Source of the DNA: Cloeon dipterum
Lineage: Eukaryota; Arthropoda; Insecta; Ephemeroptera; Baetidae
Direction of reading: 5' to 3'
Assembly (NCBI RefSeq): GCF_949628265.1
Contig: NC_088788.1
Location: forward strand, 25,468,335-25,532,334
DNA: 64,000 bases
Every line of letters starts with the position of its first letter. Position 1 is the first letter of the stretch. Below the pieces are notes generated by a model. That model was not told where the DNA came from, made no database searches, and saw nothing but the letters and a program-made list of their open reading frames with translations. This document shows, in pieces, positions 11,548-62,000 of this stretch. Position numbers and translations under genes: made by a program.

Positions 11548-14500
11548 ATGGACATCGAGGAGTTCAGGAAGAACGGAAAGGACATGATCGACTACATCTG
11601 CGAGTACCTCGCAGGTAGGCACCGCTATAGAATAGACTGAATGGTCATTTATTTGCAAAAACTTGAAATGTGTAAACAAATTTAAGGTTTTCTGTGGTTC
11701 AAAATAAATGTAAAAAACGGGCGATCTCAGCCAGCTGAGCCAGCCGGCTAATTTTCAGTCACCAGCCGCCGGTTTCTAATTCTAAATAGTTTAAAATTAC
11801 TGCGGAGGCAAAATATTCTTCCGGTCATTATCTTTAGAAATTCTGTCAGCTGTCTGCCGGGGTAAAATTTGAGCTAAGCTGCCGCCTCAAAACCTCGATG
11901 TAACTATATAAGTAAAGTATAAAAATGCCTTTGGTCATGTCAATGCATGGTAAAAACAAAGTTTTGGTTTATTTCACTAAAATTATTCGATCTGATAACT
12001 AATGGTGATGATAGTTGATGAAATTCCCACTCGAGGAAGACATTGTGCAGAGAAATTTAGCGAAATGGACTTGATGATCGAAAAATATCTCCATTTATTT
12101 GAGAAAAAGATATAATATATAAAGGGGATCACGCTCTAGGGGGATTTTCTTAATTTTGAACTTGGGAGCTCAAATAAAGGAACCTCTCATGACTAGGGTG
12201 CGCCAGTTAGAGCCGAAACATGTGCGAGCAATAAATTTTTAACGACGCTTGACCAAAAAGGACAAGTCCGATTATTATTTACACTATGGTGTGTAATAAT
12301 GTTCATATCGTCCAGGTCGTCCTGATCATGAGGTACACCAACCAGGAAAACGATCGAAAACACTCTCATTGATTAGACATTTATCTCCCCCATTTATGTA
12401 TAATTTTGAGTTAGTATTTTCATCATTTCATATAATTCAAGATCCTGATTTAACTGTAACAATTTGAATTTTTGTTAATTAATTTAAAAATGCGAATTAA
12501 TTATTAGGAAAATCTTCTGTATTGTAAGCTATGATATTTTAAAAATCAAAATTACAATATCTGAAAAATAAAAACCCATATCAGACTGCCGCCACGTTCA
12601 TAATTTTTTTATGCATTGTAAGGTCTGGGCGAGCGAAGGGTGACGCCAGCCATCGAGCCAGGCTACCTGCGGCCGCTGCTGCCGTCGACGGCGCCGCTCA
12701 AGCCCGAGTCGTGGTCGGACATCATGGCCGACGTCGAGGAGAAGATCATGCCCGGTGTGACCCACTGGCAGCATCCGCGCTTCCACGCCTACTTTCCCTC
12801 AGGAAACTCGTTCCCTTCGATCCTCGGGGACATGCTGAGCGACGCCATCGGATGCATCGGCTTCTCGTGGGCCGCCAGCCCCGCCTGCACCGAGCTCGAG
12901 ACCATCGTGCTCGACTGGCTGGGACAGGCCATCGGGCTGCCAAAGGAGTTCCTCGCCTTCTCCGAGGGCAGCAAGGGCGGCGGTGTCATTCAGGTTCAAA
13001 TTTGGAAATTTAAAATTTAATTAAAAGAGCGAAAATTAAAACAAAAATAAAATTTAGGAACCTTTGCAAAATATGTAATCTTTAAAGTGATGCAGATAGT
13101 TTAGTCGATTTTGTTTCAGATTTATTGAGTTAATACACAGAGACACTTTGGAGAGAATCTTTAAATACTAATTAAATTAGAATCATCAGCACCTACCAAA
13201 TACATAATTTATTCTTGGGTGTAATCTTCGAATAAAAAGGTTTATTCCCGGTTATTTTAGTAATTCTCAAATAATAAAACAGGATTTTTTCACTTTCACT
13301 TTCAATCTGTGAGTAAAATTTCAACTGCGATTCTTTTATTCTCAAACCGATTTTTTTCACAAATGTGATTATGCTCCTATTGATGTTTGCGTGTATGCAT
13401 TGTGATATTTCCCAAAGGGTTCAGCAAGTGAGTGTGTGCTGGTGTGTATGCTGAGCGCGAGGGCGCAGGCCATCAAGAAATTAAAAAAGCAGCACCCTTT
13501 CGTCGAGGAGGGTGTGCTGCTGTCCAAGCTGATGGCCTATTGCTCCAAAGAGGCACACTCGTGCGTAGAAAAGGCCGCTATGATTTGCTTCGTAAAGCTT
13601 CGCATCCTCGAGCCGGACAACAACTGCAGCCTCAGGGGCGCCACCCTGAGACAGGTACCTTTCCATTGGTGGCAGCAAGCCCGAGGGCTGAAAATTTTCT
13701 GTTAGCTTCCTTTGTTATTCTAAAATCATTAAGTTCCAAAAAAACTCTATGTGCAAACATATCTCATCTAAAATATTTCTATTTTGCTTCAAAAAGATTC
13801 ACAGCGATTTATTTTATCACACACTGACACCTTATTCAGAATTAGAATCATTCCCTCAAGAGAGACAAATAATGTCCAAATTAATCCAGCCCTCATTGCC
13901 ATCATTCCCTCCACAGGCGATGGAGGAAGACGTGGCAATGGGCCAGATTCCGTTCTTCGTGTCGACGACCCTGGGCACGACCTCTTGCTGCTCGTTCGAC
14001 AACCTGGTCGAGATCGGACCCGTGTGCAGCGACCTGGACGTGTGGATGCACGTGGACAGCGCGTACGCGGGCAACGCGTTCATCTGCGAGGAGTTCAAGC
14101 CGCTGATGCGCGGCATCGAGCACGCGTCGTCGTTCAACACCAACCCCAACAAGTGGCTACTGACCAACTTCGACTGCTCCACCATGTGGGTACGCGACAG
14201 GTTCAAGCTGACGCAGGCGCTGGTGGTGGACCCGCTGTACCTGCAGCACAACTACAGCGCCCAGAGCATCGACTACCGCCACTGGGGCGTGCCCCTCAGC
14301 CGCCGCTTCAGGGCGCTCAAGCTGTGGTTCGTGCTGCGCTCCTACGGCATCGACGGCCTCCAGAGGTACATCAGGAACCACTGCAGGCTCGCCAAGCGCT
14401 TCCAGTGCCACGTCTTGAAGGACAGCCGCTTTGAGATCAACAACGAAGTTAAGGTTTGTCCTAAAATTATAATTTAGCAAAACTATTAGATTTAATGGCT

Positions 14501-17500
14501 TTAACTCAAAATTGTTAGGAGACAAAATTTGAATTTAATTTAAGAAAAGCGACCAGGCAAACGGTACCAGAAAAGCTGCGAGAGTGATCGAATAAATTAT
14601 ATAATATAATTAATTATCAAACGAATCTCCCTGCACATGAAAGATTCACAAGAACTAAAAAATTGACAACGTTACTACCAAATTTGCAAAATTCATAATA
14701 TAAATGTAAGGTAAACCAATCAGTAAAATATTTGAATCATAAATTCCAAAATTTGGCTTTAGATGCCTACAACTGACACTAATTTTGTAACAGAACCCAA
14801 ATTTTGTATCGATTTTGCACAAGATCCAGTTTCGAAAATTTTGCTCACATGAGGTCATCGAGAACCCAAATTACAATTAATATATTGCACCAGAATTGGA
14901 AACGATTCAACAGTTTGGCTCTAGGATATACAATTAATTAGTTTGTCAACTGTTCAAAAATTTTGGTTCAGTTTTGCACCACTTGTCCATATCTCAAGTT
15001 TGTAAGATGGATAAGGACACGAGAGAGAAAAATTAAAATCCTTTTGATCAATGAGTAACATATAATTTCCAACACATACGTAAAAAAACGACGAGCATTT
15101 CAGGAAAGATGGCATTCCTTGCAACATGTCGATAAGGTTCCCGAATGGGAAAACGACACGTAATCATAAATATCAAATATCACGCAATTGTTTCCAAGGA
15201 ACGCTGTGCCGCGGAGCAGTCGTCCAATGATATGGTTGCCATATCAACTCACAAATAATGAAGCAAGTTCAGAATATTTGCTGCTGCCTTTTTTTGCAAA
15301 AGGAAACCCCCTTCTAAAAAGTCAAAATAAAATATAAAATTCTAGACATACAATTAGAAAACTTGTTGATTGCCCCTCAATTTTGTATTTCCAGAGAAAT
15401 ATTTTTTTCAACTGCGCTTTGAATTCAAATGGAACAGATAGCTAGTAAGCTTTTGGTACCACAATCGCTTTGCGGTCGTCGTGGCAAAGCTACCAGACGT
15501 CCTCCATCTATTTCAAATTTGCTTTTCCTTTGAAAGTACCATAAGAACAGGAACCCGTCAAAACTTCCAAGGTTTGCTGATAAAGCATGTGGTTTTACCC
15601 AAACACTTCCTGATTCCGCAAAGTCAAATTCTCATTTTCTTAGTTCGTGGCAAAATTTTGAAATCTAAAATTCCAAAAAATGTCAATGTACTAAAGCTCA
15701 CCGACCCTCCTTTGTATTGAATAAAACGGTTACTATGCTTACATTTCATGCTCCAGCAAGGTTGCCAAGACTGCGTTCTAACTTTTGCATGTTTCAATTT
15801 TTATTAATTGTTATTGTCCTGAGAAGTTTGTTGAAAATTTGTTGAGGGCATAGAAGTTAAACCGATTTAATGAGATGAAGAACATTTTCAAGTTTTCTGG
15901 CCCTGAATCGGGCTTTGTCACAAAATTAGTTTCTGTTTAGATCTCTCTAGAGAAAGTTATAAACCAAAAATTAAAAAAGCGTTACTCGCTGCTTTCTTGA
16001 AGGGGTTTGAAGACAAAATAATTCTCCTTCGCCACTGCTTTCGGTATTAATCAAGTAAGGCGACGGCAATTGCTGCACTCAGCGTAATCAATACGAGTGC
16101 TAAGTGAATGGGGCGAAAATAAATCTGCAATCAGCCCTCGCACCGACACAATGCGTGCATGCGTGTACGCGTGTGAATGAAGGAAATTTCTCGGCACGCT
16201 CCTCACTAACAATGCGTTGGCGGATGGTTAAAAAATAAAATGACTTTTTCTATTGCGCAGCTGGGGCTGGTGTGTTTTCGGCTGAAAGGATCGGACGCGC
16301 TGAATCAGAAGCTGCTGAGCGAAATCAACGCGTCGGGCAAACTTCACATGGTGCCCGCGTCCGTCAACGACAAGTTCGTCATCAGGTTCTGCGTGACGGC
16401 TCAGCACGCCGCTGAGCAGGACATCGGTATACTTTTAAAATTATCAATTTCTTTTCTACACCAAATTACATTTTTAATTATTAAATTTTGTTCCCCGTAC
16501 TAACTTGGTTTTAAATGGCTAACTTTTTACGTCACATAAACGTTTCAAGAGGTGTCCATGTAATGAGAATTAATTAAATTTTATACAACAAATCACTTCA
16601 ACTCCCGTTCCCATGAATAATCTCAGGAGTTAATAACTGCAACAAATTTAATTTTACTGAGCAAAATGGAAGTTTGAAATTGTTGTATATAAAAAATAAT
16701 ATTTTCAGATATGATAATGAGAGAAATGAATAATTTTTTTCAGAGTTCGCCTGGTCAGTGATTTTAACAATCGCCGACTCTCTTGTTGCAAAATTGCCTG
16801 GAACCATAAAAATCAAAGATGAAAAGGTAAATATTCATCATGTTTTGTCAGATTATACTTTTCAACCACATACAGCTGCAGGAAGGAAGCTAACTAGCGC
16901 TTCAAAACAAATTCAAAGAGTTGAGGAAGGACACACGGTTGGTTTAGGAAATCGCTCTTTATCCTTGAATTACTTATCCTGCAATCACTTCACAACATAT
17001 CTTTTCAAGGAAAAAGGATTATGAAAACTTTTTATTACCACTTAAAGAGTGCCTCAATAATTAAACTTATTATTTTATATAATTTTTACGCTTTAAAAAA
17101 TCAAAGTTGGCTCCGTGGCTTTATTTTTAACAAAATGATAGTAATTTAAATAATGTTGTGATTTAGTTGTATTTTGATCTTTTGACAAAGTTAAAATCAT
17201 TTTTTCAATTTCAAACCTAGATAACACAAGCAGTAAGGTTCATAATATTAATAAATTTAATTAAAATTTTGTAGGAAACTAACGTAAAATCACCATCTCA
17301 GCTGTATGACCAACGAACACAGATATCAAAAGATTATTTTGTCTTGTATTCGAGCCTTATTTTGAAGCAGGTACATATTTCTCGCGAACCCTTTTCAGCA
17401 AGCGTCGCGCGAGGAAGCGCTGGCCTTGGAGCGGCGTCAACGCGAGGAGCTGGCTTATAAGCGGTCCTTCTTCGTGCGAATGGTCAGCGATCCAAAAATC

Positions 17501-19369
17501 TACAACCCCAAGATGAGTATCGCGCGCAGACACGTCAGCGCGAGCGACAATGTACGCGAGGAGGCCAGCGTCGAGGAGGAGGAGGACAGCGAGGCTGAGT
17601 CCAACGCGCAAACCCTCCAGAGGCCAATGTAAGCTATTTTTTACTTGAATTCCCCATTCTACTTGTACTTTTTTTAATAAATTCACAAGAGAGTGTGTAT
17701 TTCATACTACAATGAGATTATTCACCACAAAATTCTTCTATGAAGCTTTATTTTGCCTTTATTTAGATATAAATTTGGATTGATTACTCTGAACAAGTAG
17801 AAAATAAAAAAGACAAAGCAGTTGAATTTGCAAAAGAAAAAAAAAACGAAAAGACATCTGCGCGGGGAGTAGAGCAGATTTCGTTCACCACGTAAAAAAT
17901 AATTCAATCAGGTTTCCATTTTCCATGTAGTTTTCACAGTAAAAATGGATATTACTTAAAAACATTATTTTCTGTTACAAATTTCGAGGGTATCTACGTG
18001 CACTACTAATACGTTCGATATCTTAAACGGAAACCCCAGGAAAAAAATAAATTCCATTTCGTACGTTTTATTCCTGCCAAAGCTATATTTATGATCGTTA
18101 TCTCTGCGGTAAGTTTCCAATCTGTTTCGATAAATGTTTTTTTCAGGATACACCATTTTTTAAACAATTAAAAACTCAATGAAGACAAGAGTGACACCGA
18201 TGTCACATTACAGTTATTTCGCTCTTTATTATGTAATTTTCAAGTACGTCTGCATGAGAACATTAGTTGAATAACAGCCAGCACAGAGGAAATTTTTAAA
18301 CGCAAAGATAGTAAAAAGTCTGCGGTCAAACTTTTCGCATTTCCTATGGATGTGCATGTTTGTTTTCAACGGCCGCTTTACGTGTTTCCCCGGCCATACT
18401 AACGTCAATAATTTCCTGCGCAATAATAGACCCAAATTAAAATATAGTTTTCTATAAGGGCAATGACATAACTTTTGGGGAAAACCAGCAATTTTGACCC
18501 TTTTTAATAATCTCTTTATCTAACGATCTTTCCGAAAAAAATGAACAGGAAACCTTAAAATATAATGTCAATTAAAGATCTCGAAAAACAGTTTTTTTAT
18601 TTATTTATTCAATCATTTTATTTTTGTCATTGAGAAAATATCGATCGCAAAAGTATTTATTACTCATTTACATGCTGACAATGCCTGCATAACTAAAATT
18701 ACATTTTAATTTCTTAATAAAATTTCGTGTCCGAGATTCATATTAAACAACTTCACATACGCGTGAAACAATCAATGATTTGAGGTGATTTTCTTGTATT
18801 CATAATTAGAATATTGTTTTTGGTTAAGTTCTCGCTTCAAACACTTCATAAAAATTGGGAAAATATAAAATGCTATCTAATTACAGTTTATAAGGTTAGG
18901 GGTGTACCAGATTATACAGTCTGTGGTTTGGTCTACATATTTAATTTACCACGATATCTGGTGCGAAATAGATTTCAAATTCGAAATGATGTGTCAATTT
19001 TGGATGACTCACAACAGTAAAACAGGCCATCAGTCTATGAAATCGACTGTAAAATAAACTTGTTTTCAGCGCCTCGTGGATAAGCTGGCCGCTGGCTTTT
19101 CTCTTCCAGGGCACATTTGACGAGGCGAAAGGCTCACCTCAACTGCCCGTTAGGTAAGTGAACGATTACAAAAGTTGTATGGCGAAAGGTCGAGCGTGAG
19201 TCTCCTCTGTCTGCATGTATTGTGTGCTCGTAGATTCCGCCACCTGGACACAATGGTGCGGCTCAAGTCGAACGGTGAGAGCGCCACCGAGAGCGACGCG
19301 AGGCAGCCAAACCAAAAGTCACCGCGGAAGTCACCTCTGGGGGCGCGCAGGACTCGCGACCAGCTCTAA
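11548..19369 (+). CDS. Tdc2: Tyrosine decarboxylase 2 (PLP-dependent group II decarboxylase)
   Basis: Converts tyrosine to tyramine, the precursor of octopamine; in Drosophila Tdc2 is the neuronal enzyme. Nine exons: 11548-11614, 12623-12993, 13418-13654, 13917-14453, 16261-16426, 16744-16826, 17399-17628, 19070-19153 and 19234-19369 (TAA). All phases agree and total 636 aa, about the length of Drosophila Tdc2. Motifs in order: [19 protein letters not shown] and [14 protein letters not shown] (N-terminal half), [14 protein letters not shown] with His193 (cofactor-stacking), HVDSAYAGN with Asp272 (binds the pyridine nitrogen), and NTNPNKW with Lys304 (Schiff base to PLP). The C-terminal extension beyond the catalytic domain contains [17 protein letters not shown], the feature that best marks it as Tdc2 rather than Ddc or Hdc. 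The far tail is acidic, then basic and Ser-rich. HVDSAY replaces the commoner HVDAAY, as it does in the neighbouring paralogue. Exons 2 and 4 are almost identical in DNA to that paralogue. Confidence 0.92.
11718..11905 (-). repeat. Dispersed GGTCTCA element, copy B (Tdc2 intron 1)
   Basis: Begins gatctcagccagctgagccagccgg and continues through caccagccgccgg to a GC-rich end at gctaagctgccgcctc. This order matches the reverse complement of copy D at 59959-60166, so it is the same element in opposite orientation. Edges are approximate. Confidence 0.55.
12020..12290. repeat. Repeat sharing two blocks with the element near 48.4 kb
   Basis: The block aaattcccactcgaggaaga (from 12021) is followed about 215 bp later by gacaagtccg and then acactat (12261-12287). 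The same two blocks occur at 48401-48455, close together and with the first one inverted. It lies in Tdc2 intron 1, between exons 1 and 2. Confidence 0.4.
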
Positions 19370-20753: not shown

Positions 20754-20808
20754 TATAAAAGAGCGGCGGGAAGCTTGGGTGGGCACCATTACTTCACAGC
20801 AGTTCAGT
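20754..20808 (+). promoter_or_regulatory. TATA-type core promoter of Tdc1
   Basis: TATAAAA at 20754-20760 lies in a short GC-rich setting about 100 bases before the Tdc1 ATG. A TCAGT initiator-like pentamer sits at 20804-20808, which is further than the usual spacing of about 30; a closer start around 20784-20796 is also possible. The resulting 5' UTR would be about 50-75 nt. The Tdc2 copy has no such TATA box at this position, so the two paralogues have different promoter types. Confidence 0.6.
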
Positions 20809-20855
20809 GCAGACCAACCTTTGGTGGACTGGGCCAACACACAACGGACACCAAG

Positions 20856-23373
20856 ATGAACGTGGAGGACTTCAGGAAGAATGGCAAGGAGATGATCGAC
20901 TACATCTGCGACTACGTCGGCGGTATTAGCGAGCGCAGGGTGACGCCGGCCGTCGAGCCGGGCTACCTGCGGCCGCTGCTGCCGTCGACGGCGCCGCTCA
21001 AGCCCGAGTCGTGGTCGGACATCATGGCCGACGTCGAGGAGAAGATCATGCCCGGTGTGACCCACTGGCAGCATCCGCGCTTCCACGCCTACTTTCCCTC
21101 AGGAAACTCGTTCCCTTCGATCCTCGGGGACATGCTGAGCGACGCCATCGGATGCATCGGCTTCTCGTGGGCCGCCAGCCCCGCCTGCACCGAGCTCGAG
21201 ACCATCGTGCTCGACTGGCTGGGACAGGCCATCGGACTGCCAAAGGAGTTCCTCGCCTTCTCCGAGGGTAGCAAGGGCGGCGGTGTTATTCAGGTAAAAA
21301 TTGAATTTAAACTTTTTAATAATCAAAAGAAGTGAAATCACGGGATATTTTACACCCAATGCCTTTAAATAGTTTTAATGAGCCAAAATTTCAAATTTTT
21401 ATACAGACAATTATCTAAAAGTTTAATCAATAATTATATAAAATAAAATTATGTAAATAAGAAAAGCCTTTTCCCAAGTCAATTTTTCCAACTTTAAACA
21501 AATTTAAAAAAAAAAACTAAATTAATCGTGAACTCGACTTTTGCCTTGTGCAGACCTGCGCCAGTGAGTGCGTGCTTGTGAGCATGCTGGCCGCCCGCGA
21601 GCAGGCCATCCTGAAGCTGAAGCAGGACAACCCCAACGGCACCGACGGCGAGTTGCTCAACACCTTGGTCGCTTACTGCAGCAAGGAGGCACACTCGTGC
21701 GTCGAGAAGGCGGCCAAAATCTGCATGGTCAAGTTGCGTATCCTCGATCCGGACAACCAGTGCAGCCTGCGCGGAAACACAGTCAGAGATGTAAGTGTCG
21801 CCTTTCTTACCACTTGATTAACTGAGTTATGCAACCCCTGGGACCCGCGAGACATCCAGGTTGCATAACTTAAAATTTCAATTTACGTGAAAAGCTCATT
21901 TAAAAAGATAACATATTTTTAAATTTTTATACCAGTTTTTAGCAGTCTTTATTCCAATAATAACCCTTCAGGTTAACTTGGAATTTATTTTACATATAAT
22001 CAAAAATTAAAATTTATGGATTTTTTAAATTTTAAAAACAGGCCATGCATGCTGATATGGAGAGCGGCCTGACCCCATTCTTCATGTCGACGACCCTTGG
22101 ATCGACCTCTTGCTGCTCGTTCGACAACCTGGTCGAGATCGGACCCGTGTGCAGCGACCTGGACGTGTGGATGCACGTGGACAGCGCGTACGCGGGCAAC
22201 GCGTTCATCTGCGAGGAGTTCAAGCCGCTGATGCGCGGCATCGAGCACGCGTCGTCGTTCAACACCAACCCCAACAAGTGGCTACTGACCAACTTCGACT
22301 GCTCCACCATGTGGGTACGCGACAGGTTCAAGCTGACGCAGGCGCTGGTGGTGGACCCGCTGTACCTGCAGCACAACTACAGCGCCCAGAGCATCGACTA
22401 CCGCCACTGGGGCGTGCCCCTCAGCCGCCGCTTCAGGGCGCTCAAGCTGTGGTTCGTGCTGCGCTCCTACGGCATTGACGGCCTCCAGAGGTACATCAGG
22501 AACCACTGCACGCTCGCAAAGCGATTCGAGCAGCTTGTGCTCAAGGACAGCCGCTTCGAGGTCGCCAATGACGTCAAGGTTAGTTTGAGTCTGATCTCCA
22601 AATACTATAAGGGTTGATTTATAAAATCATTGATCTAAGAATTGATTAATTTTCTTATTTTTTAATTTTATTTATGAAAAATAAAATTGAAGTTTTAAAA
22701 ATTTGAGGGAGGGATAGAATTTTAGAGAGTTAATTAGTTTGACTAATTTTGTATCCTCTTAATCCACAGATGGGCCTCGTTTGCTTCCGTCTTAAGGGCG
22801 AAGACAAGCTGACCCAGGAGCTGCTGGCCAAAATCAACATTTCAGGCCAACTCCACATGATCCCCTCCCTCGTGAACAACAGATACATCATCCGCTTCTG
22901 CGTCACCGCGGAACACGCCACAGAAAATGATATTGGTGAGTGTTCAATGTTGATAAGTGAACCAAACCGACTTCAATAAGTTTCTATTTTTGCGAATTAT
23001 TTTTAACTGAAAATAACGATAAAATATATTTCCGGGTTCGCAAAATGATTCAACGTTTAATAATACCCCAATTTTTATCATCGTTGCTTTTATAACTATA
23101 GATTTCGCGTGGTCTGTGGTGAGCGATATGGCGGCCGAGATTCTCAGCGACCCTAACAACAGACAGCGCCGCCAGTCGCTACTCAAGAGGCGTCTCAGCT
23201 TCGTCCGAAGCGTGTCCCGCGATGTGTTCCAAAGGTCCAATTCGAGGAGCAGTCTCTACGACGGCTGTTCGCCCGTCATCATCTTGGACGAAAACGATTT
23301 GGAGATTAAGGAGGACGTATTCACCTTCGCGCCGATGAAGGAGGAGCTCAACGAGGAGATCAAATCCAAGTGA
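20856..23373 (+). CDS. Tdc1: Tyrosine decarboxylase, second tandem copy (Tdc1-like)
   Basis: Second PLP-dependent decarboxylase, predicted to make tyramine. Five exons: 20856-21293, 21554-21790, 22042-22578, 22770-22935 and 23102-23373 (TGA), 549 aa with all phases matching. ATG at 20856 is in a CCAAGATGA context and follows a TATA box. Catalytic residues fall at the same numbers as in the upstream copy: His193 in [14 protein letters not shown], Asp272 in HVDSAYAGN and Lys304 in NTNPNKW. Differences from the upstream gene: exons 1 and 2 are fused with no intron between them, the loop around residues 170-180 is changed ([12 protein letters not shown]), and the C-terminal tail is shorter. That tail has a basic Ser/Arg segment ([17 protein letters not shown]) and an acidic end. 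The tandem order resembles the Tdc1/Tdc2 pair of Drosophila, but the protein is closer to its neighbour than Drosophila Tdc1 is to Tdc2, so the symbol is positional. Orthology needs a tree. Confidence 0.9.
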
Positions 23374-23581
23374 ACGCGAGTCTGTTACGCGTCTGCAAAG
23401 CTTTTCTGTGATACTCATTATTCATTCAATTATTTGAATTATTTATATTATTCTCATCATTATTTAATATCGATTTCTCCCAGACGTGATTGTCGACTTT
23501 ATATCAAAAATGGGAATGGGAACGATTTGTAGTTGTGATCAAATCGCTAAACGTCATATTTTGTACTTTGCCAGTAAGTTA

Positions 23582-23587
23582 AATAAA
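23582..23587 (+). terminator. Polyadenylation signal for Tdc1
   Basis: AATAAA 209 bases after the Tdc1 stop codon, directly opposing the Sec31 3' end. Confidence 0.5.
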
Positions 23588-23615
23588 AAATAGGTTTACC
23601 GGTTTAAAATTATCA

Positions 23616-23621
23616 TTTATT
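23616..23621 (-). terminator. Polyadenylation signal for Sec31
   Basis: TTTATT on the plus strand (AATAAA on the minus strand), about 155 bases after the Sec31 stop. It lies within 40 bp of the opposing Tdc1 signal, so the two 3' UTRs probably overlap. Confidence 0.45.
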
Positions 23622-23773
23622 ATTATCAAAACCTAACAGATAAACAATTTTATGATAATTAACGATCTCTTAAAATTTCCTTTTTACAATGATTACAAGA
23701 ACTCAACCACCATAATCCCCATCCATTCAAAATAGTTCATTTGGTGAATCTGCGAAAAACATGTGACAACTCA

Positions 23774-26700
23774 CTACTGCACATGGGCGCCAAGCTGAGC
23801 AGAGGTCTGGATCAGGACCTTGATGCTGGGCATGAAGGCGGACATCTGCGAGAATTCTGGCCCAGAAATCATTACTGTGTGAAGCTGCAGGCTGCCTTGG
23901 TAGTCGCCAGCCTGGATGTGCCTGATCAGTTCGTGGAACGAGGCAAAAGAGTTCTCCGAGAGCTGTAACATTTTTTGAAACTTTGCCAGAAAAACAAAAG
24001 ACAGATACATTACAAAATATGCTCAATAACTGTTTTTAATTTAAATACAAGACTCTCAAGGAGCAGATAGATATAGGATAAACCTAAAGAAAAATAGACA
24101 TCTGTTACCTTGTACTCGCGAAGGCTGTCAAAAAGAATTTCCAATTTCCTGCCAACATCCTCCATCTTTCGGCGTATCTGCGGATTTGGTGCCAAACTAA
24201 TACATTGATCCTTCAGCGAGGTGAGCACTGTCGCGATGATTTGGTGCTCAGCAGGAATTTCCGCCTTGGGCTTAGGAGGCTCGCAGATGGTGGCCTTTCT
24301 CACCGGCGATACAGGCGCTGTGGCAGCAGGCTGCATGATATTATACTGTTGGTTTGGCATCTGGCTCATCTGATTGTAAGGCATTTGGCTCATCTGATTC
24401 TGAGGCATTTGGCTCATCGGATTCTGAGGCATCATCGGCTGATAAAACCCTGGCATACCCTGGAAAAATACAATAATTGGAAGTTATTATTTTCAAGCTA
24501 TTAATGAGAAGGAATAAGAATAATAGGTTCAACATCATAAATAATGGAGAAAATTACTTGTCATAGAAACCAAACCACAAAATGTGTGAAAATCTGATTG
24601 GAATTGGCTGCAAAGCAGATTTTTTAAGATTATAATTATTCTTTGTTGTCAAATTACAAATCCCCACCACGGGACTTAAACATTTTCCTTTCAATTTCCC
24701 AATCATTTAAATTTTAACAAGAAAAAAAATATTATACAAGTGTATTCCTCGATTTGAACTATGTGGACTTAAATCACTACCTCAAACCCAGATATACTAA
24801 GAATTATTATTAAAAACATTTTTTATTTCTAGTGACTTTGAATCCTAATATCTAGTGAAAAAATCATATAGATGTGTCCAACCACACAAAGCATAATGAA
24901 ACAACTACATACCGTGTTGACTGGCTCAGGTTCTGCAGGAGCAACGCCATATAAAGGACAGGTTATGGGAGCGGGGGCATTAATGTCAGATTTTTTCTGC
25001 AAAAAGTAATACTCATGATGGAATCAAACTATTTTAAAGTACTCTGATCATAGGCATGCAAATGAAGGAGGAATTCGAACCTGCACTGGCTTGCTGATTG
25101 GTGGTGGGTCATTCCATCCTGGCGGTGCGAGCTGGCTCTCCATCAGTTTGGGCTGTGGCCGCGGGGCAGGCGCCACACTAGCTTGCGGCTCTGCATAGCC
25201 ATAATAAACACCTTTAAATTTCTCACCGCCAAATTTTAAGATCATTTTTTTTCAAATTTGATATGTTTGTGAAATTTTAAAACAAATTTTGAAAAACTTT
25301 TGTAGTTTAATCATGTGTCGCAAGAGTAAAAAAAGCGAAAAATAGAGATCAGTGTTTCATTTTACAAAAATTTTCATGTGAAAGACTCACCTGTGTATGA
25401 GGAGTAGGAAGAGTTGTTGAATGACTGATCACTGGGTAAGGCAGCACTCGGCATAGGAGAGAAGACGCTGGGCTGCTGGGACGAGGAGTAGCTGTTGTCT
25501 GCTCCATAAGGACTACCAGAGTAAGGAGATGATGGGTACGAACTCGCCTGGCCATACTGTCCACCACCGTAGCTTTGGCCGTAAGAACTGTTATTTTGCA
25601 CAGAGGGGTCGGCAATATATTTCCTGCCTGCGAATAAAAGACAATTAATAAATTATCACACTCATGCCAAAAAGATTTAATTCAAACTTCCTAATTAGCA
25701 ATGATAAAACTTAATATCAGGTATTTTGTGCAATAAACTCAAGGGACAAAAGTTTCGGAACTTAAAAAATCTTTAGTTACAAAAAGGTTATTTAACATCA
25801 TTAAAATCTCAATTGGGGTATGTGTCTGTGCAGTGCAAAGCAATTAGTAAGCTTTGATTTTGCCGATTTTGCAATTAAATGTCATATTAGAAAAGTGTTT
25901 ATATTATGCTCTCTTGTTATTTTCCCTTGATTGTATAGGAAATTAGGTTTAAAATCAAACTATTTACTTAAGCCAGAGCCAATTCCTGAAGGTTTGCCTC
26001 CAGTTGTCGGCGGAGGAGGGGCAGGTGAAGGAGACCCGGTGGCTGCAGGCTGCATTGGAGTCGGATAAGGAGAAGGTGAGGGCGCCGGAGGGTACACATT
26101 TGGCGTGGGCTGATACAAACTGGGTGCCGGTTGATACACAGGCGAAGTCTGCGGGTACACTGGACCACTGGAAGGGTAAGCCTGCACTGCCGGTTGGTCG
26201 TAACCACTTGACTGACTAACAGTTCGCGATCTCGGCCACTGCAATTGGGAAATATTATATTTTAACTGCAATAATGATTCATAGTTGAGATAGAAGATTG
26301 ATCCAGTTGCTATACTAGATTAGCTGATGAATTGATGTTCAATTTTACTGGTGGCTATTTAAACAGCCAGATTTGCTGACAAGGCTTGGGATTAGCCAAT
26401 TTGTTTTGTTGAAGTAATCTGTATATTTTTAAAATCTAATTTAATTAACAAAATTTAATAAACAAAATTTAATAAACAAAATGGAACATTTATTTGAAAA
26501 CGCATTACTTTCAGATGTTTGTCCCACGCTTTGGATAGCTCATTGCATTAAAAGCAATTAGCATAATATTTCCATATTTTTCTTGCAAATCGCGAGGTAG
26601 AGACAGTTAAAAAATAGAAAGGTTTCTTGCTCTAGCTCTCTTAGCAAATCTTAACCACGCGCATCTTCAAAAAAATCGATTAAAGGCTCTCTCAACGAAT

Positions 26701-29700
26701 GTTTAAGTTCTGGATATTTCCTTACCGGCTGTGTAGGAATCTGCGGGCCACTGGGCCTCCTGAATGTTTGCTGCTGCTGCAGATGCTGTTTCTGCACAGC
26801 TCTGGGCTGGCTCTTCATGCCAAGACCTGTTGTCAGTCTGTCTTTCAGCTCAAGGGCAGACTCCTGCAAATAAAAACATCACTATCCCACCGGTCTGTCT
26901 AAGTGGGGATCAAGCTTACATCTTGGGCAGTCTCCAAACAGGACAGGGCTGAAGTCAGGGCGCCCTGAGAGGCCAGAAGGAAGGCGTACTTGGACAGCAA
27001 GTTAGCCAGACTTCCCGTAGTCGGAATCGTTCTACCCTGAGACTGGGACGCAGCTATTTGGAGCAAAAGAGCTCCTTGGACCATTTCCTGGAATGGATTG
27101 ATTGGGCAAGGTGGTTTGCACAAGGGAAATATTTTACCTGCAGCTGCAAATTGCTGCTTGGAGCAAAGTTTGTGTCCCATGAAGAAACAAGTTTGTCCAC
27201 ATTGCCGGAGCAAAGGTAACAAACCTGGGCAAACGATTTGTATTCTGCATCACTCTCTAGTCTTTCGCCAAGTTGTTCTAGAAACAAAAAATTGAAAAGA
27301 TTTATTAAAAATTTTAACATGACTCCGTAAAGTAATACTTTAGAAAATCTACAAGCAACACTTACGACACAGTAAATAGAAGTCCTCCCCGTTCGCGTGG
27401 GTGAGGATTCCAGCCAAAAGTTGCGGCCACGAGGACAACGAGCAAGTGGCAATAATAGACTTCCAGTCATGGCTCACAACAGCGTTAATCAGATGAGAAA
27501 GCCAGCCTTTCGATTGCTACGAGTTAAATGTTAGTTAACAAACTAATATTTTTTAAATAAAAATTCAGTAATATTGGTTTGAGTCATGTGTTCACCTATT
27601 TTTAAAACGGTGTTGGTAGTGTCAAATTGTTATTAAAATAAGAGAACACAACACCCTGTGATGATTCTCCCCACTAATTGGTACTAGAAACTTACAGACG
27701 TTTCCCAAGTAATCCCAGAACATCAATGTCAATAACAATCGATTGAAAATTACTCTATCCAAATTGACATTAATCAATTACTCTAATTAAATGATAAATT
27801 ACTTTTTAAATTATTTGATGTAGTAATATCCTGTAAATTCTGAAAATAAACCAATAAAGATAAACTCATTTCAAGCAATTGTGCAGAGCAATAACAATAT
27901 AATTCAAATACATTCTAAATTTCGACATGAAGTTTGAACACCAGATTTCAAAACCCCTTGTTGATTTTGTGAAATAAAGTTAAAAATAAATCAGGTTTAC
28001 TTGTCGTGCTCAATCATCTGACACCAATTCCTCCAACTCAAACAAAAAATCCTCAATTTTGAAGTGATAACAACATCAATTTGTCTCTATAATCTAATGG
28101 TTTTGTTGAAGTACCTTGAAGTAGCGCATCTGCGTTTGGGCAAGCAGTTTTGCCCCGCCAGTCATGGCGAGAAGCAGCGCGTCGGCCATTCGGTTTTGTT
28201 GAAGACACAACTCCACAGCCGCTTCCAGTTTTCCAACCAACAGTGCCTGGCCAATTTGACCTTCTGGGTCAAGCGAGCTAGGGATGCAGAATTTTTCGGT
28301 TGGAAGATCCGAATAGGGGAACTGAAATTAACTTATTTTGAGCCACAAATCTCAAAACATTGCAAAATTCGAAAACATTAACAAGATAAACATAAAAAAG
28401 TTGTTATTTGAGAAAGCGGAAAATAGTTACACTCTGGTCGAATTCTTCAGTCTGGAGATCACCCTGAAACCAAAATTTTTACTATCTAGAAAAACTTTAA
28501 CTTGGGTGCATTACATTAGTGGTCAAATGAGAGACATCATTGGTCAGTTTATTGATGTCATCGCCAAGAGCCGCGTTGATGCTGCTGTTTATTTGGTCAA
28601 GGGGGTAGCCTAGCAAGGTGAGCGTAGCCGACTGAGGGTGAGCTTCAAACTGGGCACCCAAGTACTGCCACAGGGTTTTTAGCTGCGGCGACGAAGCAGT
28701 CTGCAGTTGCTCGTAGCAGAACTCAGAGTACATGCCCTGGCTAAGTACGTGCTCCAGTTTTGCGGCGCGGGTGAGCAGCTCTGGCTCAGACACCAATTGG
28801 CTGATGATTACTTTGTTCGGCTCGTCAGTAGAATATTGAACTAGACGGCCACCAAACTAAAAAAATGATATAATAATATAAATGTAACAATTGCGCTAAA
28901 AACAATATCAAGAAAACTTTTATCCATGTGACAACGTCCCATTTCCTTCACATTTCAAAATATTTTTAAGTTTTGCAAATACACACAGCAAAAGAGGATC
29001 CTGCAGTCCTTCTTAACCACTTTGGCGGTTTTCTCAGGTCCACGTGGGTTTGAACGACTGGCTGAGCCACAACTGCAGGCGCAAGGCTCTCCATGCCGGG
29101 AAATGAGTCTGCAATCTGAAAAACTAATTGTTAAAAATACCAGTGTAGGTTCTTTACAATTTGGCAAACCTTGCTAGTTGTTACAGTGGGCGCTTGTTGG
29201 CCACCAGTCAAGGAGTAAATGCTAACATGGCCATCAAAGCTGGAGCAGGATATGAGGGAAGGATATCTAGGGCACCAAGAAACGTCAAAGAGCCACTGAT
29301 GCGGAGTTTGAATTTCACAGAGAAGTTCATGGCCCTGAAAGGTTTTTAATCTTGCTTACTCGATTGATTAAAAGTGATTGACCCCCGCTAGTAGAATAGA
29401 AATTAAAAAATATATATTTGAAAATACTGTTAAAATTGAAAGATATTTAAAAATATTTGTAGTCTTTTTTGCTATATTATTAAAAATTACAAACAAGAAA
29501 AAAATAAATCTCACTTGAGTGTTCTCATTTGGATTCCAGCAGAGAATCCTGTTGTCCCTGCCGCAACTGAGCAGAAGATCTGGGTCCTTCTCACACCAAG
29601 AGATACAAGTGACTGCCCTTGTATGGCCCAGCATGGTTTTGAGGGGCGAAGTGGCGAATCGCAGGTCCCACAGCTGCACCACTGGTGCCATGTCGTCTTC

Positions 29701-30583
29701 AGAGGACAGACATAACTGCGTGGCCACGTCTGGATGCCAAGCAACCACGTTCCAGCGAACCTTGAGTTGATTGTGGATAGTCAAAACTCAATTTTGAATT
29801 AAAGTTTTTAAACTCACATGAGAGTTTGAGTCAGCTAGTTTGATGATGGGTTCGTTTTTACGCAGATCCCAGACCACGCATCTGGATGCAAAAGTGGAAG
29901 CCAGAATATGTTGCACTGAGAAAATTTATTTGCAAAAAGCAGGAATGAAGAAAATTTAGAGCAAACCTTGTCTGTTCCAAGACAGCCAACTGACTGCGTC
30001 TGGTGGAGTCACCTTGGCTCCAGGGGTCATTGGACTTGTCATTTGTACCAAGTCCCAGATGAAAATTTCTGAGTCACCAGCACCAGAAGCTAATAAATTT
30101 TGCTGCAAAGAGGGCAGTGTAAGGAGAGGTTTTTCACGCACAGAACGAAATTTACTTGATATGGATTTATGTCAAGAGCCTTGACAGCACCACTGTGTCC
30201 ATTCTTCTTGATCTTCAGATCTTTTTGTCCGCCCAGCATTTCCTGGGGACTGTAAATTTCGACTATACCTCCATCACAACCAGCAATCAAATTGTCCATG
30301 CTCCACACTAGCTTGTGGAACCTGTTGATGCATGCCATTTTAAATAATTCAATTTTATTTTGACATTTATAAATAAGAACCTCTGATCTGTCTGTACTCC
30401 TGCAACTTTTTCCATGTCTGTGCCTGGCTCACTCAGGTTCAAAGAGAACAACTCCAGCGCAGACGTAGTGCTGAAAGTGGCATCCAGTTGCTGGGCCGCC
30501 GTTCCTCCAGCCAGTAGGGTTGGATGCTGGTCAGGAGGCGACCACGCCACGTTCACGGTCCTCTCGACCTCTTTCACTCTCAT
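23774..30583 (-). CDS. Sec31: COPII outer-coat protein Sec31
   Basis: Outer scaffold of COPII vesicles at ER exit sites; pairs with Sec13 and stimulates Sar1 GTP hydrolysis with Sec23. Twenty exons on the minus strand: 30583-30381, 30321-30156, 30102-29967, 29915-29818, 29760-29515, 29334-29170, 29115-28987, 28856-28515, 28463-28431, 28321-28115, 27516-27366, 27277-27138, 27087-26920, 26863-26726, 26238-25968, 25627-25391, 25190-25081, 24996-24913, 24459-24109 and 23962-23774 (TAG). Total 1187 aa with all phases consistent. Residues about 1-340 form WD repeats ([30 protein letters not shown]). Then comes the blade-insertion and alpha-solenoid region (about 380-770). A Pro/Tyr/Ser/Gln-rich disordered linker follows (about 770-1010) with WNDPPP, typical of the Sec23-binding PP motifs. 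The C-terminal helical domain is at about 1010-1187. Exon 9 is only 33 nt. Start ATG is at 30583 ([16 protein letters not shown]). Confidence 0.93.
26446..26481. repeat. Short tandem repeat in Sec31 intron
   Basis: About 2.5 copies of a 15-bp unit (aacaaaatttaataa) inside the intron between Sec31 exons 14 and 15. Low-complexity; no function seen. Confidence 0.6.
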
Positions 30584-31434
30584 GATTACGGCTTAAAAAT
30601 CGAAATGGAAAAGAAAATGATGATAATAATATTCTGACAAATTTTTTGTATTGCAGTCGAAAACAAAAAGCCGACAGTCAACCAATGAAACAACACACGT
30701 CAGACTCAGCTGTTCCAACTAACACGAAAAATATAGGTTGATAACAGATTTTGAAAGTTTAAGCAGCAAGATTTGCAAATTTTCAATCACAGTCTGGTGG
30801 GCAAATAGTTAGCGTTTCATTTTACCTTGTTTACGGTGATCTCGATTTACAAGTTTGCGGTCTAGAAATAAACAACTGCAAGTTCCAACGTGGCTGCTTT
30901 GCTCACTGGTCTGTCTAGTCGTCTGGTGTTGGTAGTGGTGACTTTAAAATCCTGACAATCTTGTTATGTTCCCGCCCCCTCTTTATGTCGGCCCCGTCCA
31001 CTCCCACTCCCGTTTTAGTTCGTCACATGACACGACAGCTAGCTAAAGATTAAGGTTGCTATTTTCACGGCTAACTTCATCTTGCTTATTTACACTTTAG
31101 AAAAGGCATGGTTGTGTTGGTGCATGAGTCATGAATAGGTGAGACGACCAAGAACCATGTAGACGCGCGAGTTTTCAAAACAGTAATAGTGTTGATAGGT
31201 CTAAATCATGAAAAAAGTATTTAAATGGCGCTCGAGCTGTTCCTGAGAGATGGAACCAGGATGGAACGGAGCTTCATCTCTCGCCTTCCCCTCTTTGCTT
31301 CTGACGCTTGTTGTGAAAGGTGTTAGTTTAGTGTTTATGCTGCATTCAACAACGCAGTAGATAGGTTAAGCGCTAAGCATTTTTGTTTCTTTGGCGTGTT
31401 AGCGCATTTCTGGCCAATATCTCCGTAAAACAAA
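30584..31434. promoter_or_regulatory. Divergent promoter region between Sec31 and Rpb7
   Basis: 850 bp separate the Sec31 ATG (minus strand) from the Rpb7 ATG (plus strand). No TATA box stands out, and the sequence is mixed with GC-richer patches near 30960-31030 and 31240-31300. This is expected for a shared TATA-less housekeeping promoter, but no specific factor site was confirmed. Confidence 0.5.
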
Positions 31435-32391: not shown

Positions 32392-32568
32392 GAGTTATTA
32401 TTATGGTTGACACTACTACATTTAAATGTTTGCCTCTTCTTCCTAAACGAATAATCTGTTAAATCACACTGAAGCTTTATATTTTTAATGAGACCAGTAA
32501 ATCAATCTCGAGGAGCTAATATTTATCTCTACCCTACTATTTTGATGGCAAAATATTCCTTGTTTGAT

Positions 32569-32574: not shown

Positions 32575-32620
32575 TGAAATTATAAAGAAAAGTCAATGAA
32601 GCATTTCATAGAGTTGTCAT

Positions 32621-32639: not shown

Positions 32640-34427
32640 TTATGTACTTTCAACAGTTAGTCCATGTAATATAAAGCCTCCAGAGCCACTCATCAGCACC
32701 TCTGGGTGAGTTCTCTCAGGAAGAATTTGATATTTTCGCAGCCAGGGCTCTTTCAGCTTAAGGGCAGTGACATTTTTGTCCGCCTTCAGTTTCATGTAAG
32801 CCTCTTGCAGTGGCTCTTTGAACTGTGAGTAGATGACGAACGGTCTTGACAGCTCGACTAATGGTAGTAAATGGGTGCACACATTGATTGGGTTCTCTTT
32901 CGCCACCACAATTAGTGCAGCGGCCTTGTCTGATCGCAGCCGCTCCATCACTAGTGAAATTTCAGCTTCATAATCGGAATTGGCTCTCTTTGCTAAGGGC
33001 CCTTCCTCTTGTTTTTCACCATTCTCCTTCAGAGGCAAAATTCCACATTCAGTAGCTGATTTGAGGAATTCAGATAGGCTCAAGTAGTGCACCTGCAATT
33101 TTTTGTTCTTTTAATATTTAAAATAAAAATTTGATACAACAGACCCACATTTTCATTCCTTTAAACTCCCAAAAATGAAATAATTTTCATTTAAACTTGA
33201 AGCTGGTGCCAAAACTTGTGAGTTATACATCATCAAATTAATGAACTATTCCTTCAATCATAAATATATGTGAGAATAAGATTTTCTTAAATCATTTCTA
33301 TTTTAAAAAGTAAACCATAAATATACAAAACAATTCATGCTCGTAATCGCGAATTTGGACCTCGCCTACTTATAATTAATGTTTATAACGCAAAGGAACA
33401 TGAAATATATTATTATCTAACAGTCCATATTAAGGGCGCCAGCTGTACAATCAAAGCTATGGTTAAAAAATTAAATTGATGGAAAAATTGGTTAAATTTT
33501 TTAATTTCTGTTTCTAGTGATAATTTTCTACTAAATTTGGGTAAAGATAAAAAAAAGGTAGATTCCAGTAGATACAAACCTTTGAAAGGAGCTCAGGCGA
33601 GTAGTTCATAGCCTGAATCGCGATTGTCTTGTCGGTGCCTCTTGCGCAGCTCAATACAATCAGGTGCGCGTCAGAAGTTGCCGATAGACGTTCTATCATA
33701 GCACTAGTGACCATCCCTTGTGATCCTGACTCAAACAGGAGGAAGGTGCTGGGCGTTGTGGTTGCCTGTACGCCGCTCAGGGACACAATGAGAGACAAAG
33801 AGTCCTGTCGGAGGCTCATATGCTTCGGGTTCTGCTCTTGCGGGGACAAATTGCACAGAGCCTGCGTCACAAGTCTGTTGGATGTTGGACGTACCAGGAC
33901 GTACTTCTTATACTTCCTCTGCTTCTTAGAAACATATCTAAGGAAGGGTTAAATTAGACACCAATTTAATTAGATAACTTCTAATACTTTTCTTGGGCAA
34001 AAACTGTTTTTTGCTCAAAGGTAGAGCTGTTTTCCACCAGTTGCCCTACAATATCTTTTGCAGACACACCCTCGGCTTGCATGCCTACGATTGCTTCTCT
34101 GGAAAGCTTCTGGCTTTGACCATCATCTTTGATGAACCTGTTGTCTTTGCCCTCTGTGTCTTTGCTATCGTCTACCAAGACTTGCACCAAACTCTGCTCG
34201 TACTCCGAGATAGGACATTCAACCAGTTGAAATCGACGCTCCCCCCTGATTCTCTTGGCTGCCTCCATGGAATATGTGCTCCATACTGACTTTCCCATCA
34301 AGTTACCTAGCTCGACGATATCCCTGCCAAGTGATATGTGCGATTTTTCTGTCACCTGCACCACTTTGACGTAGTTTTCTCTCTGCAGGGCAACCCATTG
34401 CCCACTCTTTATAGTATTAGTTTCCAT
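32640..34427 (-). CDS. Trmt6: tRNA m1A58 methyltransferase non-catalytic subunit TRM6
   Basis: Non-catalytic partner of TRMT61A in the nuclear complex that makes 1-methyladenosine at tRNA position 58, including initiator tRNA-Met. Three exons on the minus strand: 34427-33988, 33937-33580 and 33092-32640 (TAA), 416 aa, phases consistent. Recognised from the N-terminal barrel-like part (IKSGQWVALQRENYVKVVQV, then GKSVWSTYSME), the central KDNRFIKDDGQSQKLSREAI block that introduces the family core, the basic KKQRKYKKYVLVRPTSNRL segment, and the C-terminal Rossmann-like half ending HPEVLMSGSGGFILHGLTV. No SAM-binding motif of the catalytic subunit is seen, as expected for TRM6. It is somewhat shorter than the human protein (about 497 aa), mostly from reduced linker sequence. 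Its start codon is head to head with Wdr3, 582 bp away. Confidence 0.93.
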
Positions 34428-35009
34428 CTGAAAACGTTTGAAACAGCGGAAAATTATAATGTAAAAATTTAATCATCATTTATCTAATTATGTATAAGCA
34501 ACTAAAAATACATACATACATAAATCGTGATTACAAAGAAACAAAGTCATGTAATAATCAATGTTAACTTAATGCTGTTCAGCCCAGTTCAGCCGGCGCA
34601 AACTTCTGTATGTAAACACACGTGTCGTACTGTAGCTTGTTTGTTTCTCTTCGAGTAAACATTTGAAAGGAATACCTTTCACCATATTGGAATTTTGCTT
34701 AATCTAACCAACTGCGTAAGTTACCAAAATTAGATTCCAGATTTTGAATTTCGCGGTAATTTTTCTCTGAAAAAAATGGCGATCAAGTAGCGCCTTCAGA
34801 TTTTATTATAAGTATAAGTAGTGTTATGTTAGTGTTTCACATGTGGTCTGAGTCGGTCTGAGTGAGTCTGCTGTTTGCCATCTACCTGCAGCCAAGAAAT
34901 TATTTAAGTTGTTCAAAACGAAGGATTTTGCTGTTAAATTTTCTTTTTTCAAGCCCATCTGCATTTCATGCATACTCATCCATCATAAATCTCAAATAAT
35001 TCATTCAAC
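34428..35009. promoter_or_regulatory. Bidirectional promoter between Trmt6 and Wdr3
   Basis: 582 bp between two divergent start codons of genes that both act in nuclear RNA processing. There is no TATA box in a convincing position. The repeated ggtctgagtcggtctgagtg (about 34854-34873) is a small internal direct repeat. Confidence 0.5.
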
Positions 35010-38000
35010 ATGGGTTTAACAAAGCAGTATTTGCGTTACGAAAAGGACGGCGTTTTCAATTTAATCGCTGATCCCAATTGCAATGTTGTGTTTGTTACCC
35101 TGAATGGTCAGGAGGGTCGCTTTGTGGCCGTCGGTGGCGGTGAAGATGTAATTATTTGGGACTTGCGGCTCTCAGAAAAGGTATTATTTAATTTGCAATC
35201 ACATGATGCTAGAATTAATTTTTTAATTTCAGACTGTTGTTTTAACTGGAGAAAAGAAAGCTGTAACCCGGCTGGCTGCCAACCCTGAGGGTAGCCAACT
35301 TGCTGTTGGTGATGAGGCCGGCAATGTGAGAATCTTCGACCTTGCTTCTGCCGAGAACATTTGCACACTTGCTGGCCACAGACACGCAATCACCTGTCTA
35401 AACTATGACCAGAATGGCACTAGACTCGCATCAGGCTCCAAGGTTTGGCTTAAAAATTTGCAAGCAAAGAGAAATTTAACGCACAATTTTTGTTCGCCAG
35501 GACACTGAGGTAATTGTTTGGGACGTGGTTGGAGAGCGAGGTCTGCATCGCATGAGTGGGCACAAAGGGGACATCACTCAAGTGCGTTTCCTCCCTGACC
35601 ACGAAGTCCTTGTCTCCAGCTCGAAGGATTCTTTCATCAAATTTTGGGATCTAGATACGGCTCATTGTTTTATAACTCTCTCTGCGCATAAAGCTGAGGT
35701 ATGGTTATTTTTGGGCGAGTATTCCTTGAATTAAAATATATTCTAGGTTTGGGACATTGCAATAGTTCACCAGGGTCGGTATCTCATTTCTGGAGGAACA
35801 GAGCCAGAGCTTTTTGTTTGGGAAATAAAAGAAAACACGCAGGAGAGCTTGTCAGAGGACAACCTGGTAATATAAAGTTTTTTTGTATAAAAAGGAACAC
35901 AAGTTATTTTTTATTTTACATTTCAGTGTCCTCTGCGTTGCATCAAATCAGGCTCACTGGTTCGCAGTTGCGTTGGTCGCCTACAGGCCCTGGTCACGGA
36001 CAAGTCAGGACAGGTTCTTGGCAGTTTTGGAACAGACAGAAATTTGGAAATTTTCTGGTTCTACAATGAAGATGAAGTGCAGAACAGAACTAAAAAGAGG
36101 AGGAAACGAGAATTAAAGCAACAAAAGTGAGTCCTTATATTAATTGTCCCTCCAGTTCAGTTAAATTTCACTTTCTTGTGCATAGAGAGCAAGGAGAAGA
36201 GGTACAAACTGAAGACTTGGAACCACAGACAAACTTGACAGATGCAGTTCGTAAGCTGCTCACCTTCAAGTGCACTAACAAAATAAAATCTTGTGACTTC
36301 ATAATGGGGAAAACTGGTGAAATCAGGGTAAGAATAATTTAGAACCTATTACTTCAGAACCTACATTAATTCATTCATTCATCAGTGCTCCTGCGTGTTA
36401 AACAACAACAAAATAGAACTGTACTCAGTGTTGGCGAAAAGCACAGCAGAACACAAGCTCCTGAGGACTCTGGAAAAGTGCGGTCACAGAAGCGAGGTGA
36501 GGGCAGTGTGCTTCAGCTCGGACGCGCTTGCCGTGGCTACTGGCTCAGCTGAGAGTGTCCGTGTTTGGAACCGCACCTCCCAGTCATGCCTGCGAACCAT
36601 TGCCACAGACTACGTGACCTCTCTCACCTTTGTCCCTGGAGACAGACATCTGCTGGCAGGACTGAAGTCTGGCTCCATTCTTGTCATGGACATCGGCACT
36701 GCGGAAATCCTTGAGGAAATTTCTGCACACCAAGGTGAAGTTTGGTCCGTCTGCGTCATGCCTAATAATGTAAGTCAATTTTTACCTGAACCATCACCAT
36801 CATTTAAATTAATGACGCCAGAAAATTTTAAAATTTGCATTTGCTTAATTTTACAGAAACTCATTGAATATATGATAAATATATTTTTTCCCTAAATTTT
36901 ATGTTATTTTTAACTCCGTGACCAAGAAGGTAAAAAAATGATAGATCTTCAACGATACACTTTCCTAAATTCCTACTCGAGTTAGTTTCTAGAGTATTAA
37001 ACAATTAACCAATAATTCTTTTAGCGAGGCTGCGTTTCCGGAAGTGGGGATAAATCACTCAAATTCTGGGAGTTTGAAGTAGTCACCCCTTTGAACGAGG
37101 AGAACAGCGGAAGCAGAGCCAAAGTCCTCTCCTTGCTGCACACCAGGTCGCTGCAGTTGGAGGAAGGAATCGTTTGCGTGGCCATCAGTCCCAACATGCG
37201 CTACATTGCGGCCTCCTTGCTCGACTCGACTGTCAAAATCTTCTTCATGGACACGCTGAAGGTCTGCTTTGCACCTCACAATCCAGGAATGATAATTGAT
37301 GTTTTGCTTTCAGTTCTTTGTCAGCTTGTATGGCCACAAACTGCCAGTGCTATGCATGGACATCTCTTACGACTCGACTCTGATATGCACTGGAAGCGCT
37401 GACAAAAACATCAAAATTTGGGGACTCGACTTTGGAGACTGCCACAAATCGATTTTTGCCCACGATGGTGCAATCAAGAGTTTGAAGTTTGTTCCAAAGA
37501 CGCACTACTTCTTCAGCTGTGGTAGAGATGGATCCGTGAAACAGTGGGATGCGGACAATTATGAAAGAATCATGACTCTGGATGTGAGTATTCATTTTTG
37601 TTATTTACATAAAATACCTACATAAATTTATCTGAAACTTTAAACGCTTACAAGCATAGACAGTCAACATGCTGTTAGATTAGGTTTTTTGCTGAACAAA
37701 AATTTGTAATTTTTCAAACTCTATGTGGGAGCCATTTTAGAGTGAAAAATATTTTTTCTTGTTTGAAAGAATCAATATTATGCTTTATTTTTGCTTAGCT
37801 TTGGAGCTTTGGCATTATTATTATACCTTAGTAACATTTTGTATTTTCTTAAAATATCCTGCTTGTTGATGTTCATTAATCAATTTGAATTTAAGGGTCA
37901 TCTTGGCTCGGCTCACTGTCTTGATGTATCAACCAGCTATGTGGTCAGCTGTGGTAGCGACCAGGTGGTGAGGATTTACGCCAGGAGTTCGGAGCCACTG

Positions 38001-41044: not shown

Positions 41045-62000
<20,956 letters not shown>

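Follow-up and report, generated by a model that had tools for sequence, protein, structure and literature searches.

A tandem pair of tyrosine decarboxylase (Tdc) type genes, which bear the marks of recent gene conversion, and an SLC6 monoamine transporter, most likely the octopamine/tyramine transporter (OAT) of this genome, stand on the two sides of four housekeeping genes within the analyzed stretch of 64,000 nucleotides (the window; C3:25468335-25532334). Their closeness is most likely due to chance or history, and not to the existence of a co-regulated unit, a reading to which we assign a probability of about 70%. According to it, the Tdc products would convert tyrosine into tyramine, a tyramine beta-hydroxylase (TBH), probably encoded on another contig, would turn tyramine into octopamine, and the SLC6 protein, presumably expressed in neurons, would take up tyramine and/or octopamine again together with Na+ and Cl-, while gene conversion would keep much of the Tdc catalytic core identical. 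The genes are of known kinds; the neighbourhood they form is interesting, and unproven. The genome searched consists of 190,111,064 bp in 10 contigs.

The tandem Tdc pair and its identical tracts

The two decarboxylase genes lie in the same orientation, and share two tracts of nearly unbroken identity:

11548..17632, + strand: Tdc A, aromatic amino acid decarboxylase of the tyrosine decarboxylase type; exon model, 7 exons, 564 aa; PF00282
20856..23373, + strand: Tdc B, tandem paralogue of Tdc A; exon model, 5 exons, 549 aa; PF00282
12661..12968, + strand: putative gene-conversion tract 1 in Tdc A; 275 and 32 identical bp on the two sides of a single difference
20961..21268, + strand: putative gene-conversion tract 1 in Tdc B; counterpart of 12661..12968
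13978..14385, + strand: putative gene-conversion tract 2 in Tdc A; 373 and 34 identical bp on the two sides of a single difference
22103..22510, + strand: putative gene-conversion tract 2 in Tdc B; counterpart of 13978..14385

Strong matches to PF00282 were found for both genes in Pfam, where one exon of each, and the whole of Tdc A, were scanned. The best PDB matches of Tdc A are DOPA decarboxylase (628 bits), 3k40 (612 bits), which we take to be Drosophila DDC, and HDC (571 bits); no animal TDC is found among its PDB matches, and the five NCBIfam families that Tdc A matched all score well under their thresholds. Elsewhere in the genome, at C1:27.10 Mb, another tandem pair, DDC-like, was recognized, among ten loci looked at out of 45 matches. 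Its two genes, L028 and L029, correspond to NFNPHKWMLVNFDCS and NFNPHKWMLVNFDCA; the second may, we assume, be an aldehyde synthase. This pair features the PLP lysine motif NFNPHKW, versus NTNPNKW in the pair of the window, and its local matches to Tdc A show 31-63% identity; outside the window, no match to Tdc A exceeds 66%. The window genes are therefore aromatic amino acid decarboxylases distinct from DDC, as indicated by PF00282 and by the presence of the separate DDC-like pair. Both appear to be tyrosine decarboxylases, with a predicted preference for tyrosine, on the basis of this separation and of an apparent resemblance to Drosophila Tdc2: both NTNPNKW and the C-terminal tail motif of Tdc A seem to resemble TDC, and the tail that of Drosophila Tdc2.

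Drosophila Tdc1 and Tdc2 stand in tandem. Both are said to be functional, a finding reportedly due to Cole et al. 2005. The window pair is likewise of the Tdc type, and its two members end in dissimilar C-terminal tails; it would depart from the fly pair in the identity of Tdc A and Tdc B over two tracts of the core. An intron found after codon 22 in Tdc A (exon 11548-11614), its first, is absent from Tdc B (exon 20856-21293).

The 190 sites that differ between Tdc A and Tdc B, out of 1377 aligned coding bases, are unevenly spread. Within the two tracts no synonymous difference is found (0 over 65 sites and 0 over 81 sites), while pS amounts to 0.33 ahead of the tracts, 0.56 in the interval and 0.59 beyond them. 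The longest identical run, 373 bp, exceeds those of all 20,000 shuffles, the maximum of which is 99, and two copies of its sequence were detected in the genome, one in each Tdc gene. By comparison, the longest identical stretch shared by the members of the DDC-like pair, within the stretches fetched, is 56 bases. GC3 of Tdc A reaches 0.91 and 0.97 in the tracts, higher than in exon 3 (0.73) or downstream (0.84). Taken together, the tracts are a strong sign that two blocks of the Tdc catalytic core have recently been gene-converted, which would be the simplest account of their identity. An error of assembly seems less likely, because both copies retain unique flanks. Gene conversion between the Tdc genes is a feature absent from the earlier note on this DNA. 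It would make the pair a clean natural case, in a neurotransmitter enzyme, of neighbouring genes converted only within two blocks internal to exons, and would distort any Tdc1/Tdc2 phylogeny based on the core.

The identity of the SLC6 transporter

The transporter gene lies on the opposite strand:

41045..49776, - strand: SLC6 monoamine transporter, TM1 to C terminus; 13 exons; PF00209; probably OAT-type, by elimination

Its 13 core exons join in frame, and all intron borders are of the GT-AG type, except for one GC-AG intron. The latter (donor GCAAGT; 47656 and 46441) falls between the TM4 and TM5 exons; a long CT/GA simple repeat, at about 44265-44400, lies within the intron preceding the TM8 exon. 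The PF00209 match and the Asp in TM1 (FAVDL) identify the product as an SLC6 monoamine transporter.

A search of the genome with PF00209 produced 98 matches (82 of 90 candidates were scored), which were grouped by hand into 14 SLC6 loci. Of these, 12 have a readable TM1, and three of the 12 carry the Asp typical of monoamine transporters: the window gene, a locus at C4:23.09 Mb and one at C4:18.66 Mb. The second is DAT, 73.7% identical to fly DAT over 524 aa and featuring the Asp in TM3; the third is SERT, 75.3% identical over 519 aa to a provisional fly SERT sequence. The window SLC6, 51.6% identical to the genome's own DAT and 50.6% to its own SERT, is thus a third monoamine transporter in the same genome.

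Comparison with proteins of known structure places it at similar distances from all the types represented. Among the best 60 of 104 PDB sequences retrieved by phmmer, the scores are 726 bits for human NET, 708 for human DAT, 665-696 for the various fly DAT constructs and at most 651 for human SERT; no OAT sequence is found among these 60, and a scan of viral contigs gave no match. The core alignment gives these identities: fly DAT 57.3%, NET 55.6%, human DAT 54.6%, human SERT 53.2%. Ranking by identity alone does not point one way: phmmer puts NET first, the core alignment is slightly nearer to fly DAT. Judged from these sequences, the window SLC6 is about equally distant from DAT, NET and SERT, as an old paralogue would be.

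Trees were computed in two sets, the first from reference sequences alone, the second with the genome's own DAT and own SERT added. The free trees have weak deep branches (one at 6.8/47 with the own sequences), and in the one limited to references fly DAT joins GAT1. Of the topologies tested, the best ones in both sets put the window SLC6 beside human DAT/NET. In the reference-only set, a position as sister to SERT (AU 0.0066) or basal to DAT+NET (AU 0.0072) is rejected, leaving those as sister to fly DAT (0.39) and outside all monoamine transporters (0.099). With the own sequences added, the placements inside insect DAT (iDAT) are rejected (AU 6.5e-6 and 8.6e-6; SH 0.0006 for both), and so is the grouping with own SERT (AU 3.6e-64, and also by SH). 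These are the only placements rejected by SH in this set: the position as sister to SERT is rejected, more weakly, by AU (0.034) and kept by SH (0.41), and the same holds for that basal to DAT+NET (AU 0.013, SH 0.45). What remains are the positions as sister to human DAT/NET (AU 0.93) or to iDAT (AU 0.13).

The survival of the last position in both sets, together with the core identity to fly DAT, is what speaks for a fast-evolving or duplicated dopamine transporter in place of an OAT, an explanation that we regard as highly improbable. Against it stand the DAT with the TM3 Asp at C4:23.09 Mb, the rejection of the placements inside iDAT, and the 37 columns in which fly DAT alone differs from human DAT, NET and SERT: the window SLC6 agrees with the fly protein in 9 of them and with the others in 24, the remaining 4 showing neither state. 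The window SLC6 shares with Drosophila DAT and iDAT the SLC6 family and the TM1 Asp; it differs from them in its 53-57% identity, in having Ser and not Asp at 121, Gly at 422 and Met at 426, and in that a separate DAT is present in the same genome. Placed outside iDAT, 53.3% identical to full-length fly DAT and endowed with a Ser in TM3, it is not an insect DAT; for AmDAT and DmDAT an identity of 71% is given in PMC6838227. Nor is it a SERT, as seen from the AU values for the two SERT placements.

The earlier note had seen an octopamine/tyramine (NET-like) type in TM6 and TM8. The TM8 motif, MGGME, is common to human DAT and NET, and is not diagnostic because human DAT shares it; a clearer difference is found in TM3, where the window SLC6 has Ser versus the Asp (AFYVDFYYNV) of fly DAT and of the genome's own DAT.

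Trichoplusia ni OAT is, reportedly, an insect octopamine transporter. The window SLC6 resembles it, along with Chilo OAT and Bombyx OctT, in being third beside DAT and SERT and in falling outside insect DAT. In PMC4501067, DAT, SERT and OAT are described in Chilo and no OAT is reported as characterized in Drosophila; Table 1 of PMC5085708 lists DAT, SERT and OctT for Bombyx.

This trichotomy also bears on the idea that the gene represents a third lineage, neither OAT nor DAT, such as a retained NET-like catecholamine transporter. Human NET is indeed its best phmmer match among the 60 considered, and the best tested trees put it beside human DAT/NET. However, the same two sources give Chilo and Bombyx a single third type, OAT/OctT, no second extra SLC6 with a TM1 Asp is found among the 12 readable loci, and of the 26 columns where human DAT and NET share a state against fly DAT and SERT, the window SLC6 follows the human pair in 7 and the opposite state in 12. 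We consider this lineage improbable, though a little less so than a duplicated DAT.

The window SLC6 is therefore taken, by elimination, as OAT-type, since it is the third SLC6 with a TM1 Asp beside DAT and SERT and since placement inside iDAT is rejected. Its most likely substrates would be octopamine and tyramine, an assignment based on this elimination and on the literature trichotomy, with DAT, NET and SERT as the types compared, and one that amounts to a strong inference, below proof of membership. The earlier note had supposed that the transporter might be OAT and had proposed a tree with insect DAT, SERT and OAT as the check, a place inside insect DAT counting against it; such placements are rejected, and its supposition is well supported.

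Distance, intervening genes and the question of a common locus

From the stop codon of Tdc B to that of the SLC6 gene there are 17,671 bp, in agreement with the distance of about 18 kb between two Tdc genes and a monoamine transporter given earlier, and the four housekeeping genes then proposed to lie in between were also recognized, on both strands:

24010..30592 (approximate), - strand: SEC31 (COPII coat); best PDB match of 29368-29787 is Sec31A, 117 bits
31786..32097, + strand: frame with an exon of RPB7 (RNA polymerase II subunit); PDB RPB7, E 1.9e-26; PF03876 below cut-off
32640..34472 (approximate), - strand: TRM6/Gcd10p-type tRNA methyltransferase subunit; 33981-34472 PF04189, 100 bits
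34989..38948 (approximate), + strand: WDR3/Dip2 (Utp12 family); 35227-35508 PF25173, partial; PF25172, PF04003

The other exons of SEC31 were assigned by eye, four of them having been scanned against Pfam with no match; the part of TRM6 at 32640-33110 was also assigned by eye, and has no Pfam match.

Under uniform placement, the probability that one named gene lies within 17.7 kb of another is about 2e-4, a value low enough for a functional cause to be conceivable. Over the 45 pairs that some 10 amine loci can form, the figure becomes about 0.8% at 17.7 kb and 2.3% at 50 kb, uncorrected for the windows and ideas scanned. The closeness of Tdc and SLC6 genes is thus suggestive, and by itself not significant.

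The Cu2_monoox_C domain, searched as a guide to TBH, is found at 4 loci in the genome, none of them in the window. The gene most like DBH, with a score of 73.5 bits against it over 60 aa, lies at C4:1.617 Mb. A DBH-like gene at C3:27.897 Mb (L036, L039), which shares its contig with the window and is 2.4 Mb away from it, gives the strongest Cu2_monoox_C match in Pfam and scores 62.8 bits over 91 aa against DBH; we presume that it may be of the MOXD type, and that the C4 gene is nearer to human DBH. The likeliest TBH would be the C4:1.617 Mb gene, because it is the most similar to DBH; the C3 gene is ranked behind it because the DBH score of the former is higher over a shorter stretch. No TBH is thus included in the neighbourhood, its candidates lying at C4:1.617 Mb and C3:27.897 Mb. 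The evidence against a full phenolamine pathway cluster is mild. The genome's own DAT and own SERT are both on C4.

Non-coding sequences shared by the two sides were looked for by comparing 4 segments of the Tdc side with 5 of the transporter side by blastn, and none stood out: the 20 comparisons yielded 99 matches with E no higher than 1, short and mostly AT-rich; the top 15 measure 12-18 bp, and the lowest E is 0.006. Linkage of Tdc and OAT was not found in a literature search covering titles and the beginnings of abstracts, subscription journals being mostly outside its scope. Bombyx OctT is assigned to chromosome 20 in PMC5085708; no chromosome for Bombyx Tdc was found in the literature consulted.

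These data bear on the proposal that the region is a functional phenolamine neighbourhood, in which Tdc-OAT linkage is conserved and shared enhancers, or a shared chromatin domain, act in octopaminergic neurons. The linkage is real, and its low chance probability, for one named pair and over the amine-locus pairs, is in favour of it; the intervention of four housekeeping genes on both strands, the location on C4 of the gene most like TBH and the shortness of the non-coding matches are all against. On balance we deem it unlikely. Rated slightly lower, and speculative, is the wider idea of an ancient insect Tdc-OAT neighbourhood, in which synthesis and clearance would be under shared long-range control and gene conversion would keep the decarboxylase cores identical while tails and exon 3 diverge; the arrangement would then be invisible in Drosophila because OAT has been lost there. 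Should the linkage prove conserved, phenolamine production and clearance could be assigned to one place in the genome, which would also offer a way to approach octopaminergic identity among those insects which keep OAT. As for the joined locus of production and clearance suggested in the earlier note, nothing beyond proximity speaks for it, with the likeliest TBH on C4 and no shared non-coding sequence found in the segments compared. Chance or historical closeness, with the two sides probably not co-regulated, is the reading retained.

The candidate upstream exons of the SLC6 gene and the flanking sequences

Two candidate exons may extend the transporter gene upstream:

51139..51246, - strand: candidate exon, either the second (phase 1-1) or an alternative first one with ATG at 51205; codon score, donor 6.7 bits
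61886..62000, - strand: candidate first coding exon of the SLC6 gene; codon score, donor 4.9 bits, phase compatible

They rank 1 and 2 among 30 phase-compatible ATG-to-donor candidates, when donor score and codon usage are combined. The codon score of the ATG form of 51139-51246, which joins in frame, is reached by 4 of 400 open non-coding comparison windows, and that of 61886-62000 by 2 of 400; the latter exon is separated from the next SLC6 exon, on its upstream side, by 10.6 or 12.1 kb. An SLC6 gene reaching 62000 is accordingly proposed as a candidate model, on the grounds of phase, codon usage and splice sites, not of homology. With these exons the product would consist of 626 or 662 aa, a range that reflects the uncertain N terminus and that differs from the 706 aa of Bombyx OctT given in PMC5085708; the Chilo OAT frame, according to PMC4501067, has 2250 bases. 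The two upstream exons fit alternative N termini.

Upstream of the Tdc pair, an exon of NCU-G1 (PF15065) is found at 955-1437. In the 40 kb flanking each side, the top-scoring frames resemble, by eye, AHCY, an ALG-type glucosyltransferase and others.
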